In this document: piece by piece, positions 18,913 to 63,052 of the stretch
Layout of the letters: every line of letters begins with the position of its first letter
Numbering within the stretch: the stretch's first letter is position 1
Assembly (NCBI RefSeq): GCF_000425145.1
Contig: NZ_AULF01000015.1
Span: forward strand, 1-64,000
Origin: Pedobacter glucosidilyticus DSM 23534
GTDB lineage: Bacteria > Bacteroidota > Bacteroidia > Sphingobacteriales > Sphingobacteriaceae
Direction of reading: 5' to 3'
Length of the DNA: 64,000 nucleotides
Notes under the pieces: generated by a model
Database searches by the model: none
Seen by the model: only the letters and a program-made list of their open reading frames with translations
Told to the model about the DNA's origin: nothing
Translations under genes and position numbers: made by a program

Positions 18913-19803
18913 TTAAGATTCTCTCTGTTGAGTTTTATAGTTTACCGGAGAAATACCCATTAGTTTTTTAAACATTCTTGAAAAATAAAATGGGTCTTGA
19001 AAACCTAGTTCCATACTAATTTCTTTGATATTTCGATCTGTAAAACATAAGTACTGACAAGATTTTTTAACTTTTAACAAATTGAAATATTGGTTGGGTG
19101 AAGTTCCTGTTTTAGCTCTAAATAATCTTGAAAAATGAGAAATAGAAAGACGATGTTGTTGAGAAAACTCTTCAATATTAAATCTTTTATCTAGGTTCTT
19201 TTTCATGAATGCTATAGATTTAGATACAATATCTATTTGATTGATAGAGTTTTGAATGTTCTCTAAATAAATAAAAGAAGAAATATATGATAATACTTTT
19301 AACTGGCAGATTTCAATTTCTCTTTCATTTACACAACTTTCTATCATTCCATAAATTTGGTTAAAAAGCTCAATACGCTCTTCTCTATAAGGCAAATCCA
19401 TACTATTACTTTCTTGATATCTTTGATATAGGTGATTTGCATGTTCTCCATCAAAGTGAATCCAGTAAATAGACCAAGGCTCTTGAATGGAGCTGTAATA
19501 TTGAAATGCGGTATGTTTAGGGATAATAATAAAGGTATTTTGTTGTAGATTGATGTGGCGATTGGGTAATTCTACAACTCCAGAACCTTTAACACAATAT
19601 AATAAAGTGTAATGCTGGTCGCCAGTTCTACTTTGATAGTTGTGATGAGTAGCATTTGGATAATACCCTAAAGCTGTAACATACAAACCTTTAATTAAAA
19701 AATTATTGCTTACTATCCTTTTTGTATTGGATGGTAAAAAAAGCATTTTTTGTTCTGTAGCTTCTTCTTTAATGAAATTTTGAGTAATAGTTTTTTCCTC
19801 CAT
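18913..19803 (-). CDS. AraC-family transcriptional regulator
   Basis: The 296-aa protein has an N-terminal cupin effector domain (about 40-165, with LLYCVKGSGVVELPNR and QNTFIIIPKHTAFQYY). The C-terminal double helix-turn-helix (about 195-290) contains LSISHFSRLFRAKTGTSPNQYF and the family signature IKEISMELGFQDPFYFSRMFKKLMGISPVNYK. It probably senses a sugar from glycan breakdown and activates nearby genes. It lies next to the T9SS operon, and three promoters in the region carry AraC-type 21-bp-spaced direct repeats; assigning those sites to this protein is inference. Confidence 0.9.
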   Translation of the reverse strand: MEEKTITQNFIKEEATEQKMLFLPSNTKRIVSNNFLIKGLYVTALGYYPNATHHNYQSRTGDQHYTLLYCVKGSGVVELPNRHINLQQNTFIIIPKHTAFQYYSSIQEPWSIYWIHFDGEHANHLYQRYQESNSMDLPYREERIELFNQIYGMIESCVNEREIEICQLKVLSYISSFIYLENIQNSINQIDIVSKSIAFMKKNLDKRFNIEEFSQQHRLSISHFSRLFRAKTGTSPNQYFNLLKVKKSCQYLCFTDRNIKEISMELGFQDPFYFSRMFKKLMGISPVNYKTQQRES

Positions 19804-20161
19804 AAAATTTAATCTTTTTGATCTAAATCAAGATTTGAATAACTGCTACAAGTAATCTTGTGCTATAAGAATTTTTAGCTACAGGTGGATGATGTATAGC
19901 CATATCATCTGGGGAGGTAATCATAAAGTTTCTATAGATTTCTATGAAAACTTATAGATTGAAATGATACAGTTCGATGACATCATCATGATGTATTTTA
20001 ATTATCTTTTAAGAATAGCGCTAAAATTAAATAGCAGTTTGTAATAATCTAGTTTATATCAGTTTGCTATAAGAACAAATAAAGTTGGGTATACCCTAAT
20101 GAGAATTTTAAAAAAAGTGTAAAAGTTACATTTAAACTTTTTGAAACTCATTTTTTTAAAT
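19804..20161. other. Intergenic region upstream of the AraC gene
   Basis: No gene is seen in these 358 bp. The stretch holds a perfect interrupted palindrome ACATCAT-C-ATGATGT (19980-19994), a second small one ACAAG-taat-CTTGT (19848-19861), and on the minus strand the near-promoter TTTATTTG. It is the likely control region of the regulator gene. Confidence 0.4.
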
Positions 20162-20200
20162 GAAAAAGGGGTAAATGCTATTTGCATCTACCCCTTTTTC
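20162..20200 (-). terminator. Strong terminator of the T9SS protein operon
   Basis: A 12-bp perfect stem (20162-20173 with 20189-20200, arm GAAAAAGGGGTA) is extended by ATGC/GCAT (20175-20178 with 20184-20187). The A/T flanks allow termination in both directions. It follows the stop at 20225. Confidence 0.8.
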
Positions 20201-20224
20201 ATCATACTTTGAAATGAATCGAAT

Positions 20225-23200
20225 TTATTTTTTGATGATTTTTACTTGTCTAATATGATTACTATTTGAAATTGTTAATAAGTAAATACCTGGTTCAAAA
20301 CCATTACTCATATTTAAAGAATAGCCATTGTTTAAACTATCTGCACTTATGCTTTGGGCTAATAACTGTTTCCCTGTAATGGAGAAAATTCTTAAATTAA
20401 CCATTCCAGAATCAAATTCATTACTTTGTATAGATAAAACATCTTGTACAGGATTAGGATAAATTCTTAACTCAGGCTTTTGTAAAGTAAAAGTAGCATA
20501 CGTAATAGCCAGTTCTTTATAAGTTCCATCAACATCATACTGAACTAAACGGTAGTAATTAACACCATTTAATGGTTTTGAATCAAAAGCTATATAACTA
20601 GCAGCTTCATTTTTAGCAGCTATGGTTAATATATTATTGAAATCAATACCATTTTGGGAGCGTTGTACAACATAAACTTTATTGTTTGTTTCTGATAAAG
20701 TTTTCCAACCAAGTTTAATGCTGTTAGAAAGGCCCTCGGCAGTAAAACTTGCTAATGTTACTGGTAAAACATCTAGATTTTTATTTCCTAAAGCGAAGTA
20801 AATATTACTATTGCTTAAGGTCCAATCACTACTATTAGATGTGCTGATAACAGAGGATGCTGGAGCATTTACATTTAATCCCTGATAAGTACCATCTATA
20901 GTTGTAGCATTAGCAATAACATCAATATCATTGCCACCATCATCTGTACCATATAAAATGCTTACATTTTTGTAAGTTGCGTTTGGCCCGCTAGTAACTC
21001 TAGCCATCCATCTTCTTTTTGATGATAAACTGGTTACACCAGTTCCAACAGACCCTCCTTCTGCTGCAGTAATAGTTAGGCCTACAAAAGTTGCAGGAGC
21101 GCTTACCGCTTTCATATCTGTAAAAGTAATTCTTCTGTACTGTCCGCCAGAACCCACAGGAAAGTTTACAGCAGCAGTATTATCACTTCTAACCCTTAAG
21201 ATAAGGGTACCACCCTCTATAAAACTAGTAGCGCTACCTGCTGCGGGTAAATTATTACAAGTAAGGGTATTACTAGGGCCAAGTTTGATAATCCCACGGG
21301 TAAATACTAGGGGAATACTAGCAGAAGTTAAAATAATATCATCATTCAAGATTAACCCAGCACTATTATCAATAGTTAAAGTATTGATAGTTTTAGAAGT
21401 AATGTTATTAGTACTGATGAATGCTGATGGAATTTCTGCACCTGCAATAGCTTGTACATTTCCTCTGTAGGTAATGTTAATATTAGCAGCGCCACCACGT
21501 TCCACCTGATTGCCTAAAAGTTTAGCAGGAGCGGTAATTTCTACTGCAATGGTTGTGATACCACTAAACTGGTTAAGCGTAAGTGTACTTTGATTGTTTA
21601 ATTCGCCTGCTAATAATCTTAAAGCTCTAATAATACTAATAGGGGTGCTAAGTGTTGCACCTATAGGATTGTTTAAGGCCAAAGATTGTATATTTCCAAA
21701 ACTTCCACTACCACTTATTTCTTGTAAGCTTGTACCATTTAAGGTTAATGAGTTTCCTGAGCTTGGGTTTTTAGAAAAATCTATAGTACCATTATTAACT
21801 AAATTTCCACCTACAGATACGGGTTTTCCAATATTATTACTTAAGCCAAAGCTATTTAACCTACCTTGAGCTCCAACGGTTAAATTACCTTTTACTTTGA
21901 GTTCTTGTGCCAAATCTGAAAATTGCAGGGTACCTTCAATACTCAACTTTGCTACACTAACTCCTCCAATACTTTCAACATTTTGGGTTACGGTATGGCC
22001 ATTACTAATAGTCACTTCGTCGGTTTCTAAAGGGATATTTCCATTAGTCCAAGTATTAGCATCAAGCCAATTTCCGCTCGCAATAGATGTAATTTGTCTT
22101 GGTGGAGCGGGAATGCTTGAATTAACAGTTAGTAACAATTTAATTTCTCCGCTATTAAAATTAGCTGTTGCTGCTTGAGTAGCTGTAATTTCTGTGGTTC
22201 CAATACCTGTTATACTAACTTGATTACCGTTTATAATAGCAACATTGGTATTGCTGCTACTGTAGGTAAATGCTCCATCACTATTACTACTTGGGGCTGT
22301 AAGGTTAAATGCAGCATCATTATCTAATTTGGTGATATTTGGGAAGTTAGCTAAAATAGGATCTTGTTTAGTTGCTGGGCTTAGAATAATAGCATCAAAA
22401 CCCAAATCATATTCTGTTGCAGCACTATTTTTATCTGTAACATTAAATCTGAAATTATAAGTTGCTGGATTAGTACCAAAAGTGAAATTACCTAAATCAA
22501 CCAGCTCAAAAGAACCTGTTGGACTGTAACAATCAATTTCTGTATTTAAGGTTTGGCTACCAATACTTAATCTGAATTTACCATAAGTAGGTCCTTTTCT
22601 TACCATAGCTTTTACATTACATTCGCCAGTTTGGCTTACTCTTAAAGCATACTGTATCCAGTTATTGGTTGCATTTGCTTCTAGTTTAGAGAGGTAAGAT
22701 CCGCTGGCATCGCCTAATAGAACATCTCCCTCTGTAGCAGTAGAACTTTTAGAAGTAGCCTGTGCTTCCGCCTCATAAACATTTAGATACTCACCAATAG
22801 TTTTAGACATGATAGACTTATAATAAGTGTAAGTGCCAGAGTAGGAGCCATTGGCTCTTCTGATACCAACACCCATACCCTCGCTCTCAGTAGCATTTCT
22901 ATCTTCTGGTGTAATAGTAACACCTGTGCGTAATCCATTATCAAATATGGCCCAATGTACAATATATCTTACGCCAGCTTTTAAAGCCATCTCCGTGTTA
23001 CGTTGCATAATCTCTCTGGTAACACGATCACTTGCAGCATTTGTTCCATTAATATAGCCTACAACATTTAGATATTCGTAAGTGCCAGTTTCACCTAAAT
23101 AAAGGTTATTTCTCCCAAATAAAGTAGAAGTAGGGCATCTATCTTTAATGTATTTAATCAAATCATTAAAATCATCCACAGAAGATGGCGTATTCGATTT

Positions 23201-23995
23201 CCAATTGGAGAAAGAATATAAATCCATATTCAGATAAGGAACAACCCTATCTATCATGGTAGGCCAAGTATACGTTTGGCCTTTATTTACATGGTTAAAT
23301 TCTGCTGCACCTAAAACAGTAACACCTTGTTTATTGGCTGCATTTCTAGCATCAGTTATAGCTTTTTGTCTAATTTGAAGCCATTTTATAAAGCCGTTAA
23401 TTCTTGTGTTTTGCGTGGTTACAGATGGTAAGTTAGGCGATTCATTAACAAAGCCTAACATTCCATCACCTTCCCAATTAGAAAGGATAAAAGTTTTTCC
23501 TGTATTTTGATAAGTATTACACAGATAAGTAGTGAAATTGTAAATTTCATTATAAAGTTTTGATTCTTCCTCTGGACTAATACCATCCTGAAAATTTGTA
23601 ACATTACCATTGTTGGTAAGTTCAAATGTGGTTAATACATAAGTTTTAAATTGAGTTCTGTTGAAAGCATCTTGAAAGTAAGAAGTTTGCGCTAAATCTG
23701 TTAATGTAAAAGTATTGGTGTTTAGGTTTGGCCAGTTATTACCCCAATATCTGGGATAGTTTATCGCTGTAGAACGTCCCATAAAAAGTTTAATCACTTT
23801 GCTACCCATAGCTTCAATTTCATCCACTCCTTCTTTCATAAAATCTTTACTAGGGTCAAAACGGTATTTACCATTCATGTGTGTAATACCAATAATTTCT
23901 GATAAGCTAGTATTAGGTGGGTAGGGAGACTGTCCATAACTTTTTATGGATACAAAAAGAAGAGAAAATAGAATACTATAAATTATTGTTTTCAT
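20225..23995 (-). CDS. Multidomain T9SS-secreted protein with glycosidase-like TIM barrel
   Basis: About 1256 aa. A signal peptide is followed by a barrel domain (about 25-400) with candidate catalytic glutamates in SNWEGDG (Glu175) and LGETGTY (Glu302), spaced as in clan GH-A. A CBM6/35-like beta-sandwich follows (about 405-540, NNWIQYALRVSQTGECNVKA), then an Ig-like Big segment (about 550-635) and a G8-like stretch beginning SGNWLDANTWTNG (about 640). Next come beta-repeats, then a T9SS type A sorting domain (LRIYPNPVQDVLSIQS to the C-terminal KK). I know no exact GH family for the barrel. The ATG at 23995 gives a better signal peptide than 24016. A paralogue lies at 54612-56528. Confidence 0.75.
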   Translation of the reverse strand: MKTIIYSILFSLLFVSIKSYGQSPYPPNTSLSEIIGITHMNGKYRFDPSKDFMKEGVDEIEAMGSKVIKLFMGRSTAINYPRYWGNNWPNLNTNTFTLTDLAQTSYFQDAFNRTQFKTYVLTTFELTNNGNVTNFQDGISPEEESKLYNEIYNFTTYLCNTYQNTGKTFILSNWEGDGMLGFVNESPNLPSVTTQNTRINGFIKWLQIRQKAITDARNAANKQGVTVLGAAEFNHVNKGQTYTWPTMIDRVVPYLNMDLYSFSNWKSNTPSSVDDFNDLIKYIKDRCPTSTLFGRNNLYLGETGTYEYLNVVGYINGTNAASDRVTREIMQRNTEMALKAGVRYIVHWAIFDNGLRTGVTITPEDRNATESEGMGVGIRRANGSYSGTYTYYKSIMSKTIGEYLNVYEAEAQATSKSSTATEGDVLLGDASGSYLSKLEANATNNWIQYALRVSQTGECNVKAMVRKGPTYGKFRLSIGSQTLNTEIDCYSPTGSFELVDLGNFTFGTNPATYNFRFNVTDKNSAATEYDLGFDAIILSPATKQDPILANFPNITKLDNDAAFNLTAPSSNSDGAFTYSSSNTNVAIINGNQVSITGIGTTEITATQAATANFNSGEIKLLLTVNSSIPAPPRQITSIASGNWLDANTWTNGNIPLETDEVTISNGHTVTQNVESIGGVSVAKLSIEGTLQFSDLAQELKVKGNLTVGAQGRLNSFGLSNNIGKPVSVGGNLVNNGTIDFSKNPSSGNSLTLNGTSLQEISGSGSFGNIQSLALNNPIGATLSTPISIIRALRLLAGELNNQSTLTLNQFSGITTIAVEITAPAKLLGNQVERGGAANINITYRGNVQAIAGAEIPSAFISTNNITSKTINTLTIDNSAGLILNDDIILTSASIPLVFTRGIIKLGPSNTLTCNNLPAAGSATSFIEGGTLILRVRSDNTAAVNFPVGSGGQYRRITFTDMKAVSAPATFVGLTITAAEGGSVGTGVTSLSSKRRWMARVTSGPNATYKNVSILYGTDDGGNDIDVIANATTIDGTYQGLNVNAPASSVISTSNSSDWTLSNSNIYFALGNKNLDVLPVTLASFTAEGLSNSIKLGWKTLSETNNKVYVVQRSQNGIDFNNILTIAAKNEAASYIAFDSKPLNGVNYYRLVQYDVDGTYKELAITYATFTLQKPELRIYPNPVQDVLSIQSNEFDSGMVNLRIFSITGKQLLAQSISADSLNNGYSLNMSNGFEPGIYLLTISNSNHIRQVKIIKK

Positions 23996-24042
23996 ATAAT
24001 TATAATGTGATATCATATTATGAGCGGATAATGGTTTTCCTT

Positions 24043-26013
24043 CTAGTTTTTAATCACTTTAATTTTCTTAGAAATATCTTTAGCTTCCACGGTTAAAATG
24101 TAAATGCCTTTTTTGTATACATACCCCATATCTATGGCATAATCTGTTTTTAATTGCTCTTTAGCAAGCTGTTTAGACCACAAGCTCTTACCTGAGGTAT
24201 CAAAAAGGTTTACTTGAATAAAATCATCTTGAAGATTTGGTATGGATAAGTTAAGCGTTTGGATAACTGGATTAGGATAATAAGAAACACTTATATCATG
24301 TAAGTTTGCCTCAGCACTAGCGTATTTTAGAATACTAGATGTACCGTTTTGATCAAATTGAACTAAACGGTAATAATTTGTTCCTGAAATTGGACTTCTA
24401 TCATAATCTACATAATCGTATCCTGCATATTTTGCCTTTATTTCTAAAATATCCTGAAAACTAATACCATCTGTAGAACGCTGTACAGTAAATGTTTTAT
24501 TCGCAATTTCCGATGCGGTTTTCCATGTTAATTTTATTTCTTTATTATGCGTGGCTACAGCATTAAAATAAAGTAAATCAACAGGCAAAGTGCCCGCTGT
24601 GCCTAATGTGAAATAGTTATCAGTGGTACTTAAATTCCAATCGTTACTATTGGTAGCTGTAATGATATTACTAGTAATACTTGTATTGGCTAAAGCTTCA
24701 TAAGCACCTCCTAAAGTTGTAGAAGTGCCAATAGCGCTAACATTGCTACCTCCATCTGAATTACCAAAAGTAAAGTTTATACTTTTATAGATAGCATTGT
24801 AAACGGTGTTTGCTGGGCCGCTAGGTAATATTTTAACTAACCATCTTCTACTGCTAGTGATGCTACTTAAGCCAGACCCCGCTGTACCACCTGTAGGAGT
24901 TCCTAAGCTGATGCTTACAAAAGTTGCCGGGCTACCTACTGATTTCATATCGCCAAAAGTTACCTTTCTGTATTCGCCTCCAGAACCGATAGGGAAATTT
25001 ACCGGAGCAGTATTATCACTTCTAACTCTGATAGCTACAGTACCACCTTGTATAAAACTAGTTGTGCTACCTGCCGCAGGGAGATTATTACAAGTAAGGG
25101 TTACACCGTTTCCAAGACTGATGATACCATTTGTGAAAGTAAGTGGTGTACCATTAGAGGTAAGAATAACATCGTAATTTAATAGCAACCCAGCGCTGTT
25201 GTTGATGGTAATGCCGTTTGCTGTTCTTGAAGTTAAATCATTAGTAGTCAAATAGGAACTAGGTATTTCTGAACCTGCAACTGCCTGTACGGAGCCTCTG
25301 TAAATGATATTAATGGCAGCTGTGCTGTTATTACCACGAGTAACCTGATTTCCGGTAAATGCAGCCGGAGCAGTAATATCTATAGTAGCTGATGTTAAGC
25401 TTGCTAAAGAATGGTTTATAGTTACCGTACTTTGATTGTTTAAAGTGCCCGATGTAAGTATTAATGAACGAGCTATAACAATAGGAGTATTAATAACAAC
25501 ACCATTACTATTGTTAAGTTCAATAATTTGAAAATAAGATCCAAAACTACCAGTACCACTTATACTTTGTTGAGTTGTACCATTTAAAGTAAGAGAAGGT
25601 GTAGCCGTATTGGTGAAATTTTTAGTAAAATCTGCTGTACCATCATTGATGAAATTTCCTCCCAGATATAACCTTTTAGCCACATTATTAGTTACCCCAT
25701 AACTGTTATAAATACCAGTAGTACCTATGGTGAAATTACCTGTTACACGCATTTCCTGCGCATTGTCAGCAAAAATAATAGTACCATTAACAGTTAAACT
25801 TGCTATAGTTACACCACCTGTAGTACCATTATTTTGTGTTACGGTATGTCCTTGTGTAATGATAACATCATCGGCAGCGGTAGGTACTATGCCGTTTTCC
25901 CAAGTAGTAGTGGCTGTCCAGTTTCCGCTGGCAATAGAAACTCTTTGTGCAGCTTTTAAGCTGCTAGCAAGCAAAAGTATAGCTAGTAAAAAAGTTGAGT
26001 AAAGTTTTCTCAT
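24043..26013 (-). CDS. T9SS-secreted G8-like/beta-repeat protein
   Basis: The 656-aa product has a signal peptide and then a G8-like start (SGNWTATTTWENGIVP, about 29-44). Beta-rich repeats with LTCNNLPAAGS follow, then a fibronectin-like segment (LPVDLLYFNAVATHNKEIKLTW) and a T9SS type A sorting domain with YYPNPVIQTLNLSI. It is collinear over its whole length with the C-terminal half of the next gene product, which adds a barrel and CBM in front. It should be exported and attached at or released from the surface, perhaps as a glycan-binding protein. It is first in a two-gene operon (48 bp gap). Confidence 0.75.
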   Translation of the reverse strand: MRKLYSTFLLAILLLASSLKAAQRVSIASGNWTATTTWENGIVPTAADDVIITQGHTVTQNNGTTGGVTIASLTVNGTIIFADNAQEMRVTGNFTIGTTGIYNSYGVTNNVAKRLYLGGNFINDGTADFTKNFTNTATPSLTLNGTTQQSISGTGSFGSYFQIIELNNSNGVVINTPIVIARSLILTSGTLNNQSTVTINHSLASLTSATIDITAPAAFTGNQVTRGNNSTAAINIIYRGSVQAVAGSEIPSSYLTTNDLTSRTANGITINNSAGLLLNYDVILTSNGTPLTFTNGIISLGNGVTLTCNNLPAAGSTTSFIQGGTVAIRVRSDNTAPVNFPIGSGGEYRKVTFGDMKSVGSPATFVSISLGTPTGGTAGSGLSSITSSRRWLVKILPSGPANTVYNAIYKSINFTFGNSDGGSNVSAIGTSTTLGGAYEALANTSITSNIITATNSNDWNLSTTDNYFTLGTAGTLPVDLLYFNAVATHNKEIKLTWKTASEIANKTFTVQRSTDGISFQDILEIKAKYAGYDYVDYDRSPISGTNYYRLVQFDQNGTSSILKYASAEANLHDISVSYYPNPVIQTLNLSIPNLQDDFIQVNLFDTSGKSLWSKQLAKEQLKTDYAIDMGYVYKKGIYILTVEAKDISKKIKVIKN

Positions 26014-26067: not shown

Positions 26068-26124
26068 CTAAAATATTCACGAGAACGGTTTAAATAAATG
26101 GATTATAATAGCATAAGCATAGAT
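26068..26124 (-). promoter_or_regulatory. AraC-type operator and promoter of the T9SS protein operon
   Basis: On the minus strand ATCTAT (26124-26119) and ATCCAT (26103-26098) form a direct repeat with a 21-bp period. The -7-like TATTTTAG (26075-26068) begins exactly 49 nt after the first repeat begins. An A tract (26129-26124) precedes the site, as in the two sister sites. The ATG of the operon is 55 bp downstream. Confidence 0.65.
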
Positions 26125-26235
26125 TTTTTGGCTATATAACGTTTAAGATATTTTTTAATAGGTAAATACTATTATCTCAATCAAAACAGCTGGAAAAGAG
26201 AAAAATTTGTTTAGCATCTACTTTATGTAAAAGTT

Positions 26236-26297
26236 AAAAAGTCCATTTAAATGCAATTTCTGTCTATTGAAACTAGTATTTATTCATTTTAGATTTG
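26236..26297 (+). promoter_or_regulatory. AraC-type operator and promoter of the GH2 gene
   Basis: An A tract, then GTCCAT (26241-26246) and GTCTAT (26262-26267), give a direct repeat with a 21-bp period and TGCAATTTC between them. ATTG (26266-26269) can serve as -33, with TAGATTTG (26290-26297) as -7, 49 nt after the first repeat begins. The leader would be about 35 nt. Confidence 0.7.
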
Positions 26298-26334
26298 GAT
26301 GAACCACTGCTTATGAATTTTAAAAAAGTATAAA

Positions 26335-28305
26335 ATGCTTAAAAAAATATTCGTGTTTATTCCTTTATTTTTAGGGATAATGATATCAAAATCACAAGTT
26401 ATTGAGGATGTATCACTAAATGGAAAATGGCAGTTCGTTATTGATAAAACTACTAAAGGCAATCAACAAAATTATGCCTTAAAGTTTCCACAAACTGCTA
26501 AAGATGTGATGGTTCCTCATACTTGGAATATTGAAGATGAACATCAGAACTATTATGGTAAAGCGTGGTATAAAAAAGACTTTGAAGCGCCACAGGAATG
26601 GAAAAATAGTGTGGTCATGTTACATTTTGGAGCTGTTTATCATGATGCTATAGTTTATCTAAATGGAAAAAAAATAGGAGAACATTTACAATCCGGGTAT
26701 ACTCCATTTTCTTTTGAAATCAGTAAATATTTAAATTATGGTACATCAAACCAGCTTGTGGTTTGTGTAGATAATAGTTTTTCAGAAAACATGCTGCCTT
26801 TTGCAAAATCTTTTGACTGGGCGGCAGATGGTGGGATAACCAGAAATGTAAAATTACATATCAGTTCAAAACCATCTATTAAATATTTGCATGTAACACC
26901 TCAATTAAACCTTAGGGATAGTTCAGCATCAGCTTTTATCAATATCAATTTAAATGAGCATGAAATTAACAAGCTGGCAATAAAAGTAATTTGTATAGAA
27001 AGGAAAACGGGTAAAGTGATGTTTAGTGAAGAAAAGGAGCTGAGTAAAGCAGCCAGAGGTTTCTCTTGGAGAGTTAAATTTGATAAAGTTATACCATGGC
27101 ATTTTGACAACCCAGCTTTGTATGATTTAAAAGTAACAACCCTAAGAAATGGTAAATCATCAGACATCAAGGAAGTACATTTTGGTTTTAGACAAATTGA
27201 TATAAAACAAGGTAATTGGTACTTAAATGGTGAGCTGGTGAGGTTACCTGGTATAGAATATATGCCGGGGAGTAATCCCGCTTATGGGATAGCAGAGCCT
27301 CTTAAGTTTATAGATTCTGTTGCCAGAAAGTTGAAAGACTTGAATATTGTGATTACACGTTTTCACTGGCAGCAAGACGAAGCATTTCTAAATAAGATGG
27401 ATGAACTTGGAATTTTAGTTCAGGAAGAGCTCCCTTGGTGGCAAAAACCTCAAAAGTTAAGCCCACAACTTTTGCAGGTAGCAAAATCTCAGCTTAGTGA
27501 AATGATTAATGCTCATTACAATCATCCTTCAATTTTTGCTTGGGGATTAAATAATGAAGTGGCCTCAACTTTAGAAGACAATAGCGCACTTAAAACCTTT
27601 GCCCAACAATTAGATACTTCGAGGCTATTCACTGTGATTAGTGATAGGCTGGATAAAAGATTAGCTACTGATCCATCTTTACATGGTGATTTACCCACAT
27701 GGAATGAATATGTTGGTACTTGGAATGGTAAAGATAGAACTGATTTACCAAACAGATTCGATAAAATTAATCCAATTGTTAAAGATAAAGGTTTGTTGAT
27801 TACAGAATACGGTTTATGCGAACCAGCATTTGCTGGAGGAGATTTAAGACGGATAGATGATATGTTGTACCATACCAAATTGTACCGCGAAAATCCTTAC
27901 ATACTAGGGTTTATTTACTTCTGTTTAAATGATTACCGTACGCAGATGGGAGAAGAGGGGTTAGGAAAGTATAAAATTAGACGTCATGGATTAACCAATG
28001 TTTATCTTCAGCCTAAACCTTCTTATCAGGTATTTAAGCAACTTTGTAGTCCGATAGATATTATTAAGGTCTCTAAAAAAGATGAAAATCATGCAATAGT
28101 AGAATTAGAAGTAAAGCATTCTATACCATCTTACACCTTACGTAATTATTGTTTAAAGTATCTGGATGTAAACGGGGAGACGAAAGAATTTATACTCAAA
28201 GAACTCAAACCTGGCGAGAAAATTACTATCACATTAACAAACATAAATAGCCAGTATGCTTTTGAAATTCTTAGACCAGATGGCTTTTTAGTAATCAAAT
28301 ATTAA
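26335..28305 (+). CDS. Glycoside hydrolase family 2 (beta-galactosidase-like)
   Basis: The 656-aa enzyme has a signal peptide (about 1-20). A GH2 sugar-binding jelly roll follows (about 25-180, SLNGKWQF, VPHTWN, YYGKAWYKKDF, VYLNGKKIGEH), then an Ig-like domain (about 185-295) and a TIM barrel (about 300-560). The acid/base is Glu408 in WGLNNEVAS and the nucleophile Glu491 in LITEYGL. GH2 enzymes act on beta-galactosides, beta-glucuronides or beta-mannosides; the context favours galactosides, but that is inference. It is transcribed from its own operator-linked promoter, divergent from the T9SS operon and ahead of SusC1. Confidence 0.9.
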   Translation: MLKKIFVFIPLFLGIMISKSQVIEDVSLNGKWQFVIDKTTKGNQQNYALKFPQTAKDVMVPHTWNIEDEHQNYYGKAWYKKDFEAPQEWKNSVVMLHFGAVYHDAIVYLNGKKIGEHLQSGYTPFSFEISKYLNYGTSNQLVVCVDNSFSENMLPFAKSFDWAADGGITRNVKLHISSKPSIKYLHVTPQLNLRDSSASAFININLNEHEINKLAIKVICIERKTGKVMFSEEKELSKAARGFSWRVKFDKVIPWHFDNPALYDLKVTTLRNGKSSDIKEVHFGFRQIDIKQGNWYLNGELVRLPGIEYMPGSNPAYGIAEPLKFIDSVARKLKDLNIVITRFHWQQDEAFLNKMDELGILVQEELPWWQKPQKLSPQLLQVAKSQLSEMINAHYNHPSIFAWGLNNEVASTLEDNSALKTFAQQLDTSRLFTVISDRLDKRLATDPSLHGDLPTWNEYVGTWNGKDRTDLPNRFDKINPIVKDKGLLITEYGLCEPAFAGGDLRRIDDMLYHTKLYRENPYILGFIYFCLNDYRTQMGEEGLGKYKIRRHGLTNVYLQPKPSYQVFKQLCSPIDIIKVSKKDENHAIVELEVKHSIPSYTLRNYCLKYLDVNGETKEFILKELKPGEKITITLTNINSQYAFEILRPDGFLVIKY

Positions 28306-28384
28306 TACATAAAGGCACTTTGTTTTTTTAAGTTACCTGATCAACATGCACATTTCTACCTCATAGTACTTATAAAAAAAAGTC

Positions 28385-28446
28385 AAAAAGTCTATGGTTT
28401 TGCAATTTCTATCCATTCTTAACAGCAGGAAGTCCCAATAAATTTG
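28385..28446 (+). promoter_or_regulatory. AraC-type operator and promoter of the first SusC/SusD operon
   Basis: The A tract, GTCTAT (28390-28395) and ATCCAT (28411-28416) repeat with a 21-bp period and TGCAATTTC between them, as upstream of GH2. TAAATTTG (28439-28446) is the -7 box, exactly 49 nt after the first repeat begins. This predicts a leader of about 190 nt (28450-28640) that holds an imperfect hairpin (28467-28488) but no gene. Confidence 0.7.
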
Positions 28447-28640
28447 AAAATAAGAAAATGGTATTCTGAATGATGTGCAATCATCAGAATTGCAAGAGCT
28501 ATTTAGGTGTAAAATTGGTTCTTGTTTTTTTCAACAAACCTGAACCAATAAGTTTTAAAACCAAACACAATAGCTAAAGATTTAGCCAATCTTTAGTAGC
28601 TCATGTTTAGCTAAGCTTACCAAAAGACCAAATTATAAGT

Positions 28641-31600
28641 ATGAATTATTTTTATTTAAAAAAATCAGGAAAACTACTCTTACTGCTTTTAATGGTTTAT
28701 TTACCTAGTCAGCTATTGGCCCAAAGTAAACAAACAACTACAGGTATAGAAGTGAGTGGAACAGTAAAAGACGAAAATGGAGAAGCTTTGATAGGAACTG
28801 TAGTTGCTATTAAAGGTAGTACAACGGCTACTACTACAGATGCAAATGGTAACTATAAGATAAAAGTTCCTAATGCTAAAACTGTACTTTCTTATTATAT
28901 GCTTGGTTTTCAGCGTATAGAAATTATGGTAGAAAATAAAAGTAAAATAGATGTTGTTTTACGCGAGTTAACTACTGCTCTTAATGAAGTTGTGGTAGTG
29001 GGCTATGGCTCTACCAATAGGAGAGATTTATCAGGGGCAGTTGTTTCAGTACAGGCAGAAGATATTGAGCGAAGAATGCCAACCAATTTAGCAGAAGCTT
29101 TACAAGGACAGGTTGCCGGAGTACAAATATCAACAGGGTCCGGACAGCCAGGAGAAGGGGCTTCTATTGTTATACGTGGTGCCTCTACCTTTAATGATGG
29201 TGGTATTGGACCATTATATGTAATAGATGGTGTACAACAGACCAATGCAGATGCTATCAATCCTAACGATATAGAATCTATAGACATATTAAAAGATGCG
29301 GCTTCGGCGGCTATCTATGGTGCTCGTTCTGCTAATGGTGTTATCATCATTACCACAAAACAAGGAAATAAAAAAGCACCAACCCTAGATGTTAGGTACC
29401 TGCACTCTATGAATAATCTGGCTAATAGTTTACCTCAACTTAACTCTGCACAATATAGAACCTTGCAAAAGAAACAAATGGAATATATTAATGGTGAGGG
29501 TAGAAATTTGGTGCCAGCTGCTGTAGTACAAGGTTTAGTGGCTCAAATGGCTGATAGTTTAAACTTTATTTTAAATAGCGATAATGATTACCAAGATGCA
29601 GTATTCGGGACAGCTAATAAAAACCAAATTGATGTGAATTTTGGCGGAGCAACAGATAATCTAAAGTATTTCTTATCCACTGGTTATCTAAAAGAAAATG
29701 GTATTATGGAGAATACCTCATTTGACCGTATTACCACCAGATTAAATGCTGATTATAATGCGACCAAGAAGTTAAACTTCTCTACCAGAATTAACTTTTC
29801 TTATGCTAAGAAAAAAGGCGCTGATGAGTCTAACTACCTCAATACCATGTTGGCCAGAAAGCCCAATTTATCTTTTTATTATCCTGATAACACCTTAATA
29901 GGTGTATTATGGGGTGGTAATCCTTTGGCCTTACCTGCAGAAACTAATTTTACCGATAGTTATGGAGGTACTTTTTATCAATTAGGAGAGTTTAAAATAT
30001 CTCCTCACTTAAAAATTACCAGTAGTTTAAATGCTAACTTATCATTGGCTAAGTATAAGTTCATGCGTCCTAGTTTCTTATTTAGTGGCGGGCTTACTAA
30101 TAGTGGTTCTTCTGTAGGTACCTTAAACTGGAACTGGATGAATGAAAACTATTTGAATTACAGCAGAACTTTTAATAAAGTACATACCATTACAGGGCTT
30201 GCAGGTGTTAGTGCTCAAGGTTGGAGAACAGAGTCTGATAGATTTAGCGGACGTAATTCTGCTACAGATGCTATTTATACGATGAATGCCTTCTCGGCTA
30301 ACTTCAATTTAGCTGCTACCAGAACAGAAGAATCAGTACATACTATGGCATCTGCATTTACAAGAATTGGTTATAACTATAAATCAAAGTATATTTTTAA
30401 TGCTACCGTACGTGTTGATGGTTCTTCAAGATTTGCCTCAAATAAAAAATACGGTTATTTCCCTTCTGCATCTGCTGCATGGAGATTCTCTGACGAGTCT
30501 TTTATGAAGTTTGCTAAAGGTGTTTTAAATGATGCTAAATTGAGAGTAAGTTATGGGGTTACCGGAAACGAAAGTATAGGTAATTACGATGCTATATTAT
30601 CTTACAGCGTTGGAGGTATTTATGATGATGTATCTGGTATAACGGCTTCACGTATAGCAGTTAATAATTTAGGATGGGAGCAAACTACACAATCAAATAT
30701 TGCTCTTGATTTAAGTTTTTACAAAAACAGATTTAACGTAACGGTAGACTATTATAACAAACAAACTGATGATTTACTCGCTAATTTTGAAATACCTAAA
30801 GAATGGGGATTTGATGTCGTAAGAAGAAATATTGGCTCTATTTCTAATAAAGGTATAGAGATAGATGTTAGAGGCGATATCATCAAGAAAAAAACATTTA
30901 GTTGGAATTTAGGACTTAACCTAACCAGAAATAATAACCAGATTGTATCTGTTGCTAATGGTCAGCCTTATTTATTCCAAAATGTTTGGTGGATTTCACA
31001 AGGTGGGCGTATTGGTGATTTCTTTGGCTATGAACAATTAAATATCTTCCCATACGACCAATCTAATGCTTTTTCTAATGATTGGCAGCAACTAACCCCA
31101 GTTTTCCAAACAGATGCTAACGGGCAAATGATAAAGGATGCAGCCGGAAAATACATATTAGATAGTTATACTTTAAATGGTGCCCCATATACAGGCAGTA
31201 TAAATCAAAAAACTTTTACTGATGGTACTTCTTTTAGAGGCGGTGATGTAAACTGGTACGATAACCCTAATGATGTTAACGGTAGAGGAATTATTAATGA
31301 TAGTGACAGGAAAGTATTAGGTAATGCACAGCCAGATTTTGTGGGCGGTATTAACACTACTTTTAACTATAAGAGATTTGGATTATTTATAGGAAGCTAT
31401 TTTTCTGTAGGTGGTCAAATTTATAATCAGGCAAGATACACGCTTAACCAAATGAGCATGCCTTTCTTCTCTACAGTTCCAAGTATGGATTTTGCCAATA
31501 ATTTTTGGATAAGACAAGGGGACGATACTAAATATCCAAGACCCTATGCAGACCAATATCAGAATGATCGTAATGTGAATTCTATTTATTTAGAAGATGC

Positions 31601-31838
31601 TTCATTTCTTAAAATCAGAAACATAAGATTAAGCTATTCATTACCTCCCAAAGTAACTACTAAACTTAAAATTAAGTCTTTGGGCATGTATGGATATGTA
31701 AATAATGCTTTCACTTTTACCAATTATTCTGGTTACGATCCTGAGTTTTCAAACTTTAGCGCACTAGCATTAGGTATGGATACCAATAGATATCCGCGTA
31801 AGCGTGAGTTTGGATTAGGCTTTAACTTAAATTTTTAA
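28641..31838 (+). CDS. SusC-like TonB-dependent outer-membrane transporter 1
   Basis: The 1065-aa protein has a signal peptide (ending near LLAQ, 28), a carboxypeptidase-D regulatory-like domain (about 37-112, VSGTVKDENGEALIGTVV) and a TonB box NEVVVVGYG (about 115-123). A plug domain with VIDGVQQTN, DIESIDILKDAASAAIYG and SANGVIIITT follows, then a 22-strand-type barrel to the C-terminal LNLNF. It imports oligosaccharides with the SusD partner that follows after 4 bp. No STN domain is present, so unlike SusC2 it is not expected to signal to an anti-sigma factor. Confidence 0.95.
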   Translation: MNYFYLKKSGKLLLLLLMVYLPSQLLAQSKQTTTGIEVSGTVKDENGEALIGTVVAIKGSTTATTTDANGNYKIKVPNAKTVLSYYMLGFQRIEIMVENKSKIDVVLRELTTALNEVVVVGYGSTNRRDLSGAVVSVQAEDIERRMPTNLAEALQGQVAGVQISTGSGQPGEGASIVIRGASTFNDGGIGPLYVIDGVQQTNADAINPNDIESIDILKDAASAAIYGARSANGVIIITTKQGNKKAPTLDVRYLHSMNNLANSLPQLNSAQYRTLQKKQMEYINGEGRNLVPAAVVQGLVAQMADSLNFILNSDNDYQDAVFGTANKNQIDVNFGGATDNLKYFLSTGYLKENGIMENTSFDRITTRLNADYNATKKLNFSTRINFSYAKKKGADESNYLNTMLARKPNLSFYYPDNTLIGVLWGGNPLALPAETNFTDSYGGTFYQLGEFKISPHLKITSSLNANLSLAKYKFMRPSFLFSGGLTNSGSSVGTLNWNWMNENYLNYSRTFNKVHTITGLAGVSAQGWRTESDRFSGRNSATDAIYTMNAFSANFNLAATRTEESVHTMASAFTRIGYNYKSKYIFNATVRVDGSSRFASNKKYGYFPSASAAWRFSDESFMKFAKGVLNDAKLRVSYGVTGNESIGNYDAILSYSVGGIYDDVSGITASRIAVNNLGWEQTTQSNIALDLSFYKNRFNVTVDYYNKQTDDLLANFEIPKEWGFDVVRRNIGSISNKGIEIDVRGDIIKKKTFSWNLGLNLTRNNNQIVSVANGQPYLFQNVWWISQGGRIGDFFGYEQLNIFPYDQSNAFSNDWQQLTPVFQTDANGQMIKDAAGKYILDSYTLNGAPYTGSINQKTFTDGTSFRGGDVNWYDNPNDVNGRGIINDSDRKVLGNAQPDFVGGINTTFNYKRFGLFIGSYFSVGGQIYNQARYTLNQMSMPFFSTVPSMDFANNFWIRQGDDTKYPRPYADQYQNDRNVNSIYLEDASFLKIRNIRLSYSLPPKVTTKLKIKSLGMYGYVNNAFTFTNYSGYDPEFSNFSALALGMDTNRYPRKREFGLGFNLNF

Positions 31839-31842
31839 TCAC

Positions 31843-33345
31843 ATGAATTATCAATATAAAATTTGCAAAACAAATCTTGTTGTATTTAAGGTTGTTGCAG
31901 TTGTTTTAATATTAACCATTTCTTCTTGTAATAAATTTTTAGAGCCAGAACCGATAAGTGAGGTTACGGCAGAAAATATGTGGCAAAACCAAAGAGATGT
32001 AAAAGCCGGAGTTGGAGAAATTTATTCCTCTTTTAGAGATGCATTGCGTTTAAACTTCTTTGATTGGGGCGAGTTACGCTCAGATAATTATGTATTAACA
32101 ACAGAAGCTGCTAGTGATAGGGGTAGGCTAATCTCTAATCAATTAACAACTGATATGGGTTGTACCAATTGGGCTGGTTTATATAAAGTTATCAATAATG
32201 CAAATTTTGCTATCAAAAATATTCCAAATGCAAACTTGCCAAATACGATAGAAAAAAACGATTTCCTTGCACAAGCTTATGCCATGAGAGCTTTATGCTA
32301 TTTCTATGCTGTACGTGTTTGGGGTGCTGTACCTGTTTACCTAGAGCCTATTGATAATTTAGATAAAGGTCAATTTAAAGAGAGAACTGCTAAAGAAGAA
32401 GTTTTACGTGATGTTATTATGCCCGACTTAAAAAAAGCAGAAGAGTTAATAGATCCTGCCAATGTAGAGCGTAAGCGAATTTCTAGATTTGGAATTTTGG
32501 CGATTCAAGCTGATGTTTCTATGTGGATGGAAGATTACGAAGCAGCAGATAGAACTATAGACAAAGTTAGGTCTATTTTAGGTGCAACTAGTCAGCCTTT
32601 TACCAGATTTGAACCTAGTATGGAAGTCTTAAAAAATACTTTCGTAACAGATTTGAATAATAAAACAGGTGATTTGGGCGATCGTTTGAGAGATGAGTAT
32701 GGCGCAGGTAATGAACTGCTATTTGTGATACATTTTGATTTAAAAGAATTAAATAACGTTGCACAGTACAGCATTATTCATAATTTGTTTCTGTCTGGGG
32801 TAATCTTATCACCAAAACTTACCAATATTTTTACAGCTGCAGCAAATACTAGTCCGCGTGATAATAGATTTGATAATTATCTACAAGCTTCAATAGCACC
32901 TGGGACATTTAAAGTAAATAAGTATGTAAGAAATGGCGGTACCATTAGCTTTAATGCTTTTCCAGAATGTGAAGTAGCTTATCCAGTATATCGCTATACA
33001 GACCTTGTCTTAATGCAAGCAGAAGCAAAAGCACATTTAGATCAATTTGCTGATGCCCTTAATTTGGTTGCAACTACAGTAAGAAGAAGAGCAGGTATAG
33101 AAGCTAGTACAAGAACCCAAGCTTCTTTTACTTCAAGAGATGAATTGGTTGATTATATTTTAGATGAACGCCAGAAGGAGCTCCTTGGAGAAGGTAAAAG
33201 ATGGTTTGATTTGGTTAGGAATAAGCGTGTAGTTAAAGTTATGGGCCCGATAAACGGTATCAGTAACGAGTCGCAAGCGTTATTCCCAATTAGTTATATA
33301 CACATCAATCAGAACCCAAATATTAAACAAAATCCTGGCTATTAA
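31843..33345 (+). CDS. SusD/RagB-family glycan-binding lipoprotein 1
   Basis: The 500-aa lipoprotein has lipobox ISSC, FLEPEPISEVTAENMW typical of the SusD N-terminus, and TPR-like helices (AQAYAMRALCYFYAVRVWGAVPVYLEP). The C-terminal signature is VDYILDERQKELLGEGKRWFDLVR. It forms the lid over the SusC barrel and binds oligosaccharide at the surface. It is second gene of the operon, 4 bp after susC and 12 bp before the fasciclin lipoprotein. Confidence 0.94.
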   Translation: MNYQYKICKTNLVVFKVVAVVLILTISSCNKFLEPEPISEVTAENMWQNQRDVKAGVGEIYSSFRDALRLNFFDWGELRSDNYVLTTEAASDRGRLISNQLTTDMGCTNWAGLYKVINNANFAIKNIPNANLPNTIEKNDFLAQAYAMRALCYFYAVRVWGAVPVYLEPIDNLDKGQFKERTAKEEVLRDVIMPDLKKAEELIDPANVERKRISRFGILAIQADVSMWMEDYEAADRTIDKVRSILGATSQPFTRFEPSMEVLKNTFVTDLNNKTGDLGDRLRDEYGAGNELLFVIHFDLKELNNVAQYSIIHNLFLSGVILSPKLTNIFTAAANTSPRDNRFDNYLQASIAPGTFKVNKYVRNGGTISFNAFPECEVAYPVYRYTDLVLMQAEAKAHLDQFADALNLVATTVRRRAGIEASTRTQASFTSRDELVDYILDERQKELLGEGKRWFDLVRNKRVVKVMGPINGISNESQALFPISYIHINQNPNIKQNPGY

Positions 33346-36143: not shown

Positions 36144-36722
36144 ATGACTGAAGAAAAAAGTAAAGTTGGATCGTTAGATAAGAAAAAATTTAAAGAGATT
36201 TTTAATGAAAATTATCAATCTTTATTCTTTTTAGGTCGTAATTATTTAGAGGATGAGGATGAAGCTAAAGGGGTAGTTCAAGAAGCTTTTGTTAAATTAT
36301 GGGATATTTGGGAAGATTTAAAGGAAGATACTAATCATCGTAATTTTTTATTTAAAATGGTGAAAAATAATTGTTTGAATATTTTGAAAAGGAGACAATT
36401 ATTGCTTAAACATCATGAGAAAATTAAATCATTAGAATTACATTATCAATACGAGAGTTTAAATAGGATAGGGTTTGACTACCTACAGGTAAAAGAATTA
36501 AAAGAAAAAATAGATCTATCTATTAAGAATTTACCAGAACACTGTAGAATTGTTTTTGAGCTAAGTAGGTTTGAACAATTAAAAAATAGAGAAATTGCAG
36601 AACGTTTGGGTGTTTCCCAGAAAACTGTTGAAGCGCATCTAACCAAAGCTTTAAAGATACTACGTTCAGATTTAAAAGAATATCTGCCATTGCTTGTTTT
36701 TTTAACTAGGTTACTTCGTTAA
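36144..36722 (+). CDS. ECF-type sigma-70 factor (FecI-like)
   Basis: The 192-aa protein has sigma region 2 (about 18-85; IFNENYQSLFFLGRNYLEDEDEAKGVVQEAFVKLWDIWE) and region 4 (about 125-180; LPEHCRIVFELSRFEQLKNREIAERLGVSQKTVEAHLTKALKIL). This is the standard layout of Bacteroidota ECF factors paired with FecR-like anti-sigma proteins and STN-bearing SusC receptors. All three are encoded consecutively here, so it should drive transcription of susC2/susD2 when substrate binds the receptor. Confidence 0.92.
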   Translation: MTEEKSKVGSLDKKKFKEIFNENYQSLFFLGRNYLEDEDEAKGVVQEAFVKLWDIWEDLKEDTNHRNFLFKMVKNNCLNILKRRQLLLKHHEKIKSLELHYQYESLNRIGFDYLQVKELKEKIDLSIKNLPEHCRIVFELSRFEQLKNREIAERLGVSQKTVEAHLTKALKILRSDLKEYLPLLVFLTRLLR

Positions 36723-36802
36723 AGCCAAAAAAATATTTTTTTTCATTTTTCTTCAATTTATCATTAGGGTAAATCCTTCTTTATTTGTTTACTTAACAAA
36801 CC

Positions 36803-37801
36803 ATGAATAAGTTGGACGGAAATCTATTATCTAAAATAATAACGGGAGAAGCTACTGCTGCCGAGAAAGAGTCATTTTACGAAACTTTGGAAAATAACAA
36901 AGAAGCAGAAAATGATTTTTACGAAACAAAAAGTCTTTGGTTAAAATTAGGTAGTCAATATCAAACGAATGATATAGAAGCCGAGTTTGAAGAAACTTGG
37001 GGTCTTATAAAGCACAATAAGAGAGGAAGTATTCTTAAGCTGATAAGAAGAAGCCTAAAATATGCTGCAATCTTCTTGGTTGTTTTTTCATTAGGAGCAA
37101 TATTAGGTTATCTGGTATTAAGAAATATTAAGAATTATCCAGATCAAGGAGTTCATAAATTTAGTTCTTTAAAGGGAAGTTTAAGTAGTGTTGAGCTTCC
37201 TGATGGGACAAAAGTTTGGCTAAATGCTGGTACAGAGCTAACTTATAAAGAAGATTTAGAGAATAAGCAAAGGTTAGCTGAATTAAAGGGAGAAGCCTAT
37301 TTTGAAGTAAAACATCGTGAAGATTTTCCTTTGTTAGTAAAAGTTGGAAAAGTTACCGTGAGAGATTTAGGTACTACTTTCAATATAAAAGCCTATTCTT
37401 CTGAATCTGTTGTTACTTCTTTAATTGAAGGTAAAGCAGATATTCTTTCAGAAAAAGGTAACATTCTTACAGCTTTAAGTCCAGGACAAACAGCCACTTA
37501 TTCTCATAAGACAGGTAGAATTGTACTCAGTTCTTTAAACGAATCTACAGTTAATGCTTGGCGAAATCAAAAATTCGTACTGAACAATGAAAAACTAGAA
37601 GATATTTTTAAAGAATTAAGTATTTGGTATGATGTAGAGTTTGAGTTTAAAGACCAAGAAATTAAAGATAGCAGATATTCTTTGAGTGTGAAGAAAGAAA
37701 CATCATTAGTTAAAGTTCTAGAGATGTTACGTTTAACTACTCGTTTTAATTATGAAATAAAGAATAGGGTTGGCCAGCCTGATAAAATCACCATTTATTA
37801 A
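36803..37801 (+). CDS. FecR-like anti-sigma factor
   Basis: The 332-aa inner-membrane protein has a cytoplasmic N-terminal part (about 1-80), one membrane helix (about 88-108, YAAIFLVVFSLGAILGYLVL), a periplasmic FecR domain (about 120-225; VELPDGTKVWLNAGTELTYKE, RDLGTTFNIKAY) and a DUF4974 domain (about 252-325; NEKLEDIFKELSIWYDVEFEF). It holds the preceding sigma factor inactive until signalled by the STN domain of the SusC encoded downstream. It lies 80 bp after the sigma gene. Confidence 0.92.
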   Translation: MNKLDGNLLSKIITGEATAAEKESFYETLENNKEAENDFYETKSLWLKLGSQYQTNDIEAEFEETWGLIKHNKRGSILKLIRRSLKYAAIFLVVFSLGAILGYLVLRNIKNYPDQGVHKFSSLKGSLSSVELPDGTKVWLNAGTELTYKEDLENKQRLAELKGEAYFEVKHREDFPLLVKVGKVTVRDLGTTFNIKAYSSESVVTSLIEGKADILSEKGNILTALSPGQTATYSHKTGRIVLSSLNESTVNAWRNQKFVLNNEKLEDIFKELSIWYDVEFEFKDQEIKDSRYSLSVKKETSLVKVLEMLRLTTRFNYEIKNRVGQPDKITIY

Positions 37802-62008: not shown

Positions 62009-63052
62009 TTAGCCTAAATAATGCACTAAGCTTAAATCTTTTAACTTTTTAGCAGCTTGTTCTGGTGTAATATCACGTTGCGGATTAGCCAACATTTCAT
62101 AACCTACCATAAACTTCTTTACCGTAGCTGAGCGTAACAAAGGCGGATAAAAGTGCATGTGCCAATGCCACTCCGGATGGTCGCCATCATTTACAGGTGC
62201 TTGGTGCATACCAGCAGAATATGGGAATGAGGTCTCAAATAAATTATCGTATTTGATGGTTAATTGCTTTAAAATTTCTGCTAAAGCAGTTTTCTCAGCC
62301 TCGGTAAATTCAAGAATATTTTGAACTTGTCTTTTACTGATGATCATAGTCTCATATGGCCATACTGCCCAAAAAGGTACTAAGGCAACAAAATGCTCAT
62401 TCTTTAAAATCACACGTTCTTGGCTTTCTAGCTCTATTTCCAAATAAGCACTTAATAAGCTTTTTTGGTTTTCTTGATAATACTTTAAAAACTGTACACT
62501 TTCTTTTGCAGGCTCTACCGGTACCGAGCTTTGCGCCCAAATTTGTCCGTGAGGGTGGGGGTTACTACATCCCATCACATCGCCTTTGTTTTCAAATATT
62601 TGGATGTGTTTTATCCAGTTATGAGAGGTAGACAAGTCTCTAAACTCTGTTTGCCATAAAGTAATAACATCTTCTATAGCTTTTACTTCCATCTGCGGAA
62701 GCGTAAGATCATGTCGTGGCGAGAAACAGATAACTCTGCAAATGCCACGTTCGCTAGTGGCTTGTAATAAATCACTTTTATTTACTTTTCCTTCCGGAGT
62801 ATCTTGTAATAAAGAAGAAAAATCATTGGTAAATGCATATGGACCTGTGTATGCAGGATTTACAGAGCCATCAGAACGGGTATTACCCGGGCATAAATAA
62901 CAGCTTGCATCATATTGCGGTCTTGGGGTATTGTTAACAGTTTCTACTTTACCTTGCCATGGTCTTTTGGTACGATGCGGAGAAACCATTACCCATTCGC
63001 CAGTTAATATATTTAAACGCTTATGCGGATGTTCATCAAAATTAAATTCCAT
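62009..63052 (-). CDS. galT: Galactose-1-phosphate uridylyltransferase
   Basis: The 347-aa enzyme exchanges galactose-1-phosphate and UDP-glucose in the Leloir pathway. It shows the N-terminal HPHKRLNILTGEWVMVSPHRTKRPW, Zn-type cysteines Cys51/Cys54 (CYLCPGN) and the nucleophilic HPH motif (NPHPHGQIW, His168). PVNDGDHPEWHWHMHFYPPLLR supplies the second metal-site region. The ATG shares one base with the galK stop (TAATG), so the two are translationally coupled. Confidence 0.95.
   Translation of the reverse strand: MEFNFDEHPHKRLNILTGEWVMVSPHRTKRPWQGKVETVNNTPRPQYDASCYLCPGNTRSDGSVNPAYTGPYAFTNDFSSLLQDTPEGKVNKSDLLQATSERGICRVICFSPRHDLTLPQMEVKAIEDVITLWQTEFRDLSTSHNWIKHIQIFENKGDVMGCSNPHPHGQIWAQSSVPVEPAKESVQFLKYYQENQKSLLSAYLEIELESQERVILKNEHFVALVPFWAVWPYETMIISKRQVQNILEFTEAEKTALAEILKQLTIKYDNLFETSFPYSAGMHQAPVNDGDHPEWHWHMHFYPPLLRSATVKKFMVGYEMLANPQRDITPEQAAKKLKDLSLVHYLG

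Follow-up and report, generated by a model that had tools for sequence, protein, structure and literature searches.

A direct-repeat operator before three promoters of a Pedobacter polysaccharide locus and the AraC-family regulator that probably reads it

How are the genes of a polysaccharide locus switched on together when they lie in separate transcription units? The question is raised by the first 64,000 nucleotides of contig NZ_AULF01000015.1 of Pedobacter glucosidilyticus DSM 23534 (the window, by which this whole stretch is meant), where a pair of RTCYAT hexamers recurs with a period of 21 bp before three predicted promoters and where an AraC-family regulator is encoded at 18913–19803. 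A first-pass annotation of the raw sequence had claimed that this regulator runs one regulon, made up of a type IX secretion system (T9SS) operon, a gene for a glycoside hydrolase of family 2 (GH2) and the SusC1/SusD1 pair. The sites linked to the regulator's orthologues support that claim at the level of sequence comparison, and we consider it likely that the repeated element is the activator site of the 18913–19803 regulator, controlling the G8 operon (the two-gene unit of the claim), GH2 and SusC1/SusD1 together. The three operators and their −7 boxes are the following.

26098–26124, minus strand: operator 1, ATCTAT-N15-ATCCAT, spacer with TGCTATT, 5' of the G8 operon; hexamers at 26124 and 26103
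26068–26075, minus strand: −7 box of operator 1, TATTTTAG, 5/6 specified letters (one mismatch to TAnnTTTG)
26241–26267, plus strand: operator 2, GTCCAT-N15-GTCTAT, spacer with TGCAATT, 5' of GH2; hexamers at 26241 and 26262
26290–26297, plus strand: −7 box of operator 2, TAGATTTG, 6/6 letters of TAnnTTTG
28390–28416, plus strand: operator 3, GTCTAT-N15-ATCCAT, spacer with TGCAATT, 5' of SusC1; hexamers at 28390 and 28411
28439–28446, plus strand: −7 box of operator 3, TAAATTTG, 6/6 letters of TAnnTTTG

Promoters of Bacteroidetes carry −33 and −7 elements. At all three sites the positions of hexamers and boxes, the 21-bp period and the preceding A tract proved to be correct as first described, and the distance from the first repeat to the box is 49 nt in each. 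The likeness of the spacers had been noted for two sites, which indeed have TGCAATTTC, but it is not limited to them: in the third, TGCTATTAT is in register with it, so that TGCnATT stands at an identical offset in all three spacers.

Could these simply be common AT-rich hexamers picked after the fact? In the 4.02-Mb genome, RTCYAT-N15-RTCYAT alone has 21 matches versus 45 for the reversed control. This absence of enrichment is what coincidence would predict and, since the double hexamer is no commoner than its control, it was not used as genome-wide evidence. The −7 box separates the sites: at +49, only the three window operators have at least 5/6 letters of the box, and the remaining 18 double hexamers have 0–4. 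A position matrix built from relatives' sites, with nothing of the window or of the nearest relative (genome G010) in it, assigned 31.0 bits to operator 2 and 28.9 bits each to operators 1 and 3, and nothing else in the 64-kb window scored above 0; the best of 40 Markov-shuffled windows reached 8.9 bits and the reversed window 4.1 bits. A sequence-only profile, trained on 35 sites from 26 of 34 relatives' loci described below, was then applied to the whole genome (150 of 5399 first-look candidates scored) and ranked 28390 (E 9.7e-7), 26241 (4.2e-5) and 26124 (1.2e-4) first to third, the next match standing at 0.077. A possible fourth site (C23:55625, profile E=0.0885) looked weak when read and was not accepted. 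Thus, the worry that the motif occurs at random across the genome holds for the double hexamer without its box, which is at control level, and not for the full signal, since a profile made without the window sites places them first. This ranking makes coincidence very unlikely and, with the footprint also conserved in G010, we find that explanation scarcely credible.

The evidence that ties the operator to a particular protein comes from the surroundings of the regulator's orthologues.

18913–19803, minus strand: AraC-family regulator, 296 aa, the proposed binder (Pfam PF02311, PF00165, PF12833)

A match to this protein at E<=1e-60 was found in 56 of 301 genomes of the family. From the 55 matches other than the window and G010, the best 35 minus one (G258) gave 34 loci of 20 kb each, whose orthologues are 40–53% identical to the window protein. 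A strict scan, which required at least 11/12 hexamer letters and at least 5/6 box letters at exactly 49 nt, returned 34 matches, spread over 26 of the 34 loci. When RTCYAT was placed at each of six wrong spacings, the scan returned 2, 1, 1, 0, 0 and 1; seven alternative hexamers at the correct spacing returned 0–5, the 5 belonging to the reverse complement of the motif. Exact pairs numbered 43, and 42 of them have a TAnnTTTR box with at least 5/6 letters at 49 nt (35 pairs) or 48 nt (7 pairs), the spacing being the best within 46–52 and the last box letter having been relaxed to A/G after the strict scan. The matrix places one or more sites above 15 bits in 32 of the 34 loci and none in the reversed loci; as 26 of these loci supplied the training sites for matrix and profile, the counts there are partly in-sample. 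In 31 of the 34 loci a site is located 47–300 bp 5' of the point where the tblastn match to the regulator begins, and it points away from that match. The sites are thus tied to the regulator's orthologue in these 34 further loci, which supports the first-pass interpretation. Because the same signal stands beside the relatives' regulators, it is very probably the docking site of that regulator. The relatives' consensus reads ATGRTAAWATT-RTCCAT-CTTTT...-TT-RTCCAT-TT...TAnnTTTR, and in a tree the window protein groups with those of loci L076–L079 and their neighbours, some forks being open. In many sites of L076–L109, CCAAT-type letters also follow the −7 box at a distance of a few nt, about where the start of transcription is expected; in the window sites they are not clear.

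Does the signal follow the regulator beyond the loci used to define it? The profile was run on 80 further genomes at E<=1e-4, with stricter filters under which weak matches are lost (the third site of G010 is missing). Matches occurred in 35/35 genomes with an orthologue of at least 40% identity and in 7/9 of those with a 36–40% match (9 of the 19 genomes of that group were profiled). Among 36 genomes without a regulator match at E<=1e-60, an absence checked in every one of them (best match 2.1e-59), six had profile matches, and all six belong to the 16 with a distant paralogue (29–37% identical, E<=1e-30); genomes with no regulator match at E<=1e-30 had none (0/20). When only non-training genomes are taken, matches are found in 9/9 with an orthologue vs 6/36 without (Fisher p=5.6e-6). 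In five of the nine (G079, G290, G282, G028 and G214) the match adjoins the regulator, and in G010 it lies at the target promoters. In a simpler count, WRTCCAT-N15-RTCCATT vs its reversed control gave 109 vs 53 in 34 orthologue genomes and 55 vs 48 in 34 others, with G065, G102, G060 and G094 set aside for tandem arrays or outlying counts; with them the numbers are 165 (control 55) vs 107 (control 86).

What, then, would be controlled? The predicted targets are three.

20225–26013, minus strand: target 1, two genes (24043–26013 first, then 20225–24016) for G8-domain proteins with T9SS sorting tails
26335–28305, plus strand: target 2, GH2 glycoside hydrolase (PF02837, PF00703, PF02836)
28641–33345, plus strand: target 3, SusC1 (28641–31838) and SusD1 (31843–33345), by family matches

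The name T9SS operon has to be read with care. The operator does precede this unit, but what is meant is two secreted G8-domain proteins with sorting tails (Pfam PF10162, with one protein above the cut-off and the other just short of it, PF18962 and TIGR04183), not the secretion machine. The two resemble each other, each being 46–49% identical to the other copy in G010, and the adjacent genes are probably a duplication. In sequence, the GH2 enzyme comes nearest to solved relatives of the beta-galactosidase, beta-glucuronidase or beta-galacturonidase type. The SusC1/SusD1 transcript probably includes the following genes to 35749, judging solely by the short gaps.

G010 keeps this block in the order AraC-G8-G8-GH2-SusC, with the regulator 97%, the G8 proteins 90% and 85%, GH2 89% and SusC1 97% identical. 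The first-pass annotation would have been in difficulty if orthologous genes lacked the motif; in G010 it is retained before the G8, GH2 and SusC orthologues. Upstream of SusC1, the core at 28380–28419 is identical at 40/40 positions and the −7 stretch at 28439–28448 at 10/10, compared with 12/19 for the spacer between them and 157/260 for the other intergenic positions. Upstream of GH2, 26231–26299 is identical at 66/69, the G8 site at 58/67 and the rest of that region at 147/184. Operator 1 has GTCTAT in place of ATCTAT in G010, which preserves RTCYAT, and the letters of its −7 box are the same. A 30-mer pattern of the operator with at most three mismatches recovered both plus-strand operators in G010, among 59 other genomes. 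The pattern matched in 3/60 genomes and in 9/399, own genome included in each count; the other matches (1 and 7 besides those of the own genome and G010) all have three mismatches and were set aside as probably due to chance. The motif in the relatives is looser, as the orthologue-anchored search showed. The nucleotide match to G010, over the 20 kb compared, starts at 18921, in the 3' end of the regulator gene; as there is no match beyond that point, the regulator may travel together with its targets as a unit.

Some results pull the other way and have to be set against the assignment of the three operators to this regulator. The contrast in conservation with G010 is weaker at the GH2 site and small at the G8 site, and the window sites depart from the relatives' consensus 5' of the first hexamer. 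Two of the 34 orthologue loci (L088 and L102) have no site above 15 bits, the only site of L086 is not upstream of the regulator, and 3/34 strict matches lie within what the script called a long open frame. In three of the nine non-training genomes (G065, G227 and G315) the profile match lies elsewhere, and of the matches found in orthologue-less genomes four are in G011, of the same genus. Furthermore, there is no matrix site 5' of the window regulator's own gene, unlike in most relatives; autoregulation of the window regulator was set aside on this ground.

A further group of adverse points concerns the identity of the binder. The operator could be real and yet be bound by another AraC-type regulator of the subfamily, for instance a paralogue of 35% identity encoded 45 kb away (contig 64432), or be shared by several. 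Indeed, the own genome has 25 HTH_18 (AraC-type helix-turn-helix, HTH) matches, this paralogue included, and 6/16 paralogue-only genomes account for the profile matches outside the orthologue set. Moreover, in twelve distal stretches, eleven of which were picked for a pattern match there among the matches listed, 17 exact pairs were found, 16 with a box at 48–49 nt; SusC is present in 7/12 and AraC paralogues of 31–36% identity adjoin the same operator type in 6/12. As such paralogues stand beside the same operator, the operator belongs to a regulator subfamily, in more than one branch, and binding by a different AraC protein is conceivable in principle. On the other side, the 35% paralogue has no convincing site at its own locus (best 1.9 bits with box, 3.1 bits for the operator only), 6/8 genomes of the same genus with only 34–37% matches have no profile match, and the 18913 regulator is the one kept syntenic with the three targets. 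A different AraC-type binder is thus unlikely in our judgement, and the 18913–19803 regulator is the preferred one. The 35% paralogue forms a long branch and its position in the tree is unsure. Its gene (contig 64432–65244, L152) lies just past the window end beside GalT and a GHMP (galactokinase-type) kinase at window positions 62009–63999, and the three may form a galactose utilisation unit.

The second candidate binder is a hybrid two-component system (HTCS) regulator. The AraC-type domains of Bacteroides HTCS are predicted to use direct repeats averaging 21 bp, according to the part of the source consulted (PMC3878776), and eight HTH_18 matches of the own genome lie in open frames of 1342–1416 aa. 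Adding to the points that count against our assignment, the PDB entry closest to the window regulator's HTH is 12aw, a chain of an HTCS (E 2.3e-12), with E. coli AraC 2k9s behind it (2.6e-8). The sites, however, follow a one-component AraC gene. With a 613-aa HTCS piece as sole query, neither the window nor the 20 kb that follow it nor the G010 locus (L036) gave a match at E<=1e-30, and 4/34 orthologue loci had one. This search weakened HTCS as binder, which we hold to be distinctly improbable. The window regulator itself is not an HTCS: only AraC_binding and HTH families match it at E<=0.001, with no kinase or receiver match. Its N-terminal ligand domain is AraC_binding (PF02311, residues 46–155), and its C-terminus carries two AraC-type HTH motifs (PF00165 in two stretches, PF12833 at 218–291). 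Nor does it qualify as an orthologue of E. coli AraC, as it scores 86 bits with NCBIfam NF007860 vs a cut-off of 208.

How could the 18913–19803 regulator work at these promoters? The three sequences would be copies of one activator operator, made of tandem AraC-type half-sites with an RTCYAT core 21 bp apart. The direct repeat would put a dimer of the regulator on one face of the helix and, since the second hexamer starts 28 nt 5' of the −7 box, the promoter-proximal half-site would fall on the −33 region. The ligand-bound dimer may then recruit or stabilise RNA polymerase, in a class II-type activation, so that three transcripts would be switched on together: the two-gene G8 operon, GH2 and SusC1/SusD1. 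The two hallmarks of such a site, direct half-sites about 21 bp apart and a fixed distance to the promoter box, are both found, at 48–49 nt in 42/43 relatives' pairs and 49 nt in 3/3 window sites. As for the ligand, BgaR is a lactose sensor. Residues 66–155 of the regulator are similar to the BgaR ligand domain (PDB 6nwh, E 5.2e-9), the relation being distant. The relatives' loci hold aldose 1-epimerase, GH2, sugar porters and GH97, as well as GH95 and others; the closest NCBIfam model for GH97 is a retaining alpha-galactosidase, below its cut-off. The genes of these loci and the BgaR-like domain hint at galactose or a galactoside as the ligand.

The architecture is familiar from E. coli AraC and Bacteroides HTCS and is here newly mapped. 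In E. coli AraC, the half-sites are named I1 and I2 and have a 21-bp period. The window regulator resembles that protein in being one-component, with an AraC_binding domain and a similar C-terminal HTH, in which GF-D--YFSR-FKK is common to the regulator and 2k9s. At araI1-araI2, too, direct half-sites lie by the promoter; the half-site is given as TAGC-N7-TCCATA, and the TCCATA core of one, in the portion of the source seen, is comparable to RTCCAT here (PMC4514859). The present sites differ in that the −7 box is TAnnTTTG, there is no TAGC box at the same offset, there is no evidence for looping, and three operons of a polysaccharide locus are concerned. The Bacteroides HTCS motifs are likewise direct repeats averaging 21 bp 5' of susC-type operons and, in the part consulted, are credited to AraC-type domains (PMC3878776), whereas the window regulator is one-component, 296 aa long and without a kinase or receiver match. 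A further parallel in kind is CgrA of Zobellia galactanivorans, an AraC-family regulator that is also one-component and without which growth on carrageenans is slower; it is likened to the window regulator by description only, and the sections seen describe no CgrA binding site (PMC5698469). A XylR-like regulator of Vibrio has been reported, in the excerpt available, to use two AT-rich direct repeats (PMC12125979).

In the literature searched for AraC-family direct repeats and galactose regulons in Bacteroidetes and Pedobacter, no description of the operator motif and regulon was found; as no paper on an AraC protein with TAnnTTTG and direct repeats came up, both seem undescribed there. In Pedobacter-like bacteria, HTCS, SusR and systems pairing an extracytoplasmic function (ECF) factor with FecR draw most attention. 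For these bacteria, the present analysis puts forward an operator and a regulon, both concrete enough to be tested, for a one-component AraC protein that would serve polysaccharide loci, together with a rule for reading target promoters from sequence: a period of 21 bp and 48–49 nt to the −7 box. It also shows that a reading of raw sequence alone picked a true shared signal from three copies. Tentatively, and with rather more doubt than confidence, a single operator grammar (a pair of RTCCAT half-sites with a 21-bp period, 48–49 nt from the first of them to TAnnTTTR) may be common to a whole subfamily of one-component AraC regulators in this family of the Bacteroidota, including the 31–36% paralogues at other polysaccharide loci. 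If so, regulons for neighbouring sugars may be wired together, and the near-rigid distance of 48–49 nt would reflect an invariant geometry in which an AraC-type activator contacts the RNA polymerase of Bacteroidetes.

Further features of the locus and of related loci may be added. An ECF/FecR pair follows the SusC1/SusD1 genes.

36144–37801: ECF/FecR pair, by family matches

Between the G8 operon and the regulator gene, at 20160–20210, there is an inverted repeat, AAAAAGGGGTA...TACCCCTTTTT, which is terminator-like by eye and which the consensus scan did not report. A search anchored on GH2 in named genomes, not used for the main claim, yielded 10 loci: two of them, Pedobacter L036 and Chitinophaga L043, contain an exact pair, and the remaining eight do not. 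The L043 site (9802, minus strand) reaches 32 bits with its box at exactly 49 nt and lies 5' of SusC, divergent from the GH2 relative; no AraC match at E<=1e-8 was found within that locus. In two Flavobacterium loci, L039 and L040, a weaker site, of 22 bits, adjoins the gene for an AraC protein of 34% identity. Finally, in the spirochaete locus L045 (5402–8362) an AraC protein (29%) is encoded divergently from GH2 (36%), which means that the pairing of GH2 with AraC crosses phyla.

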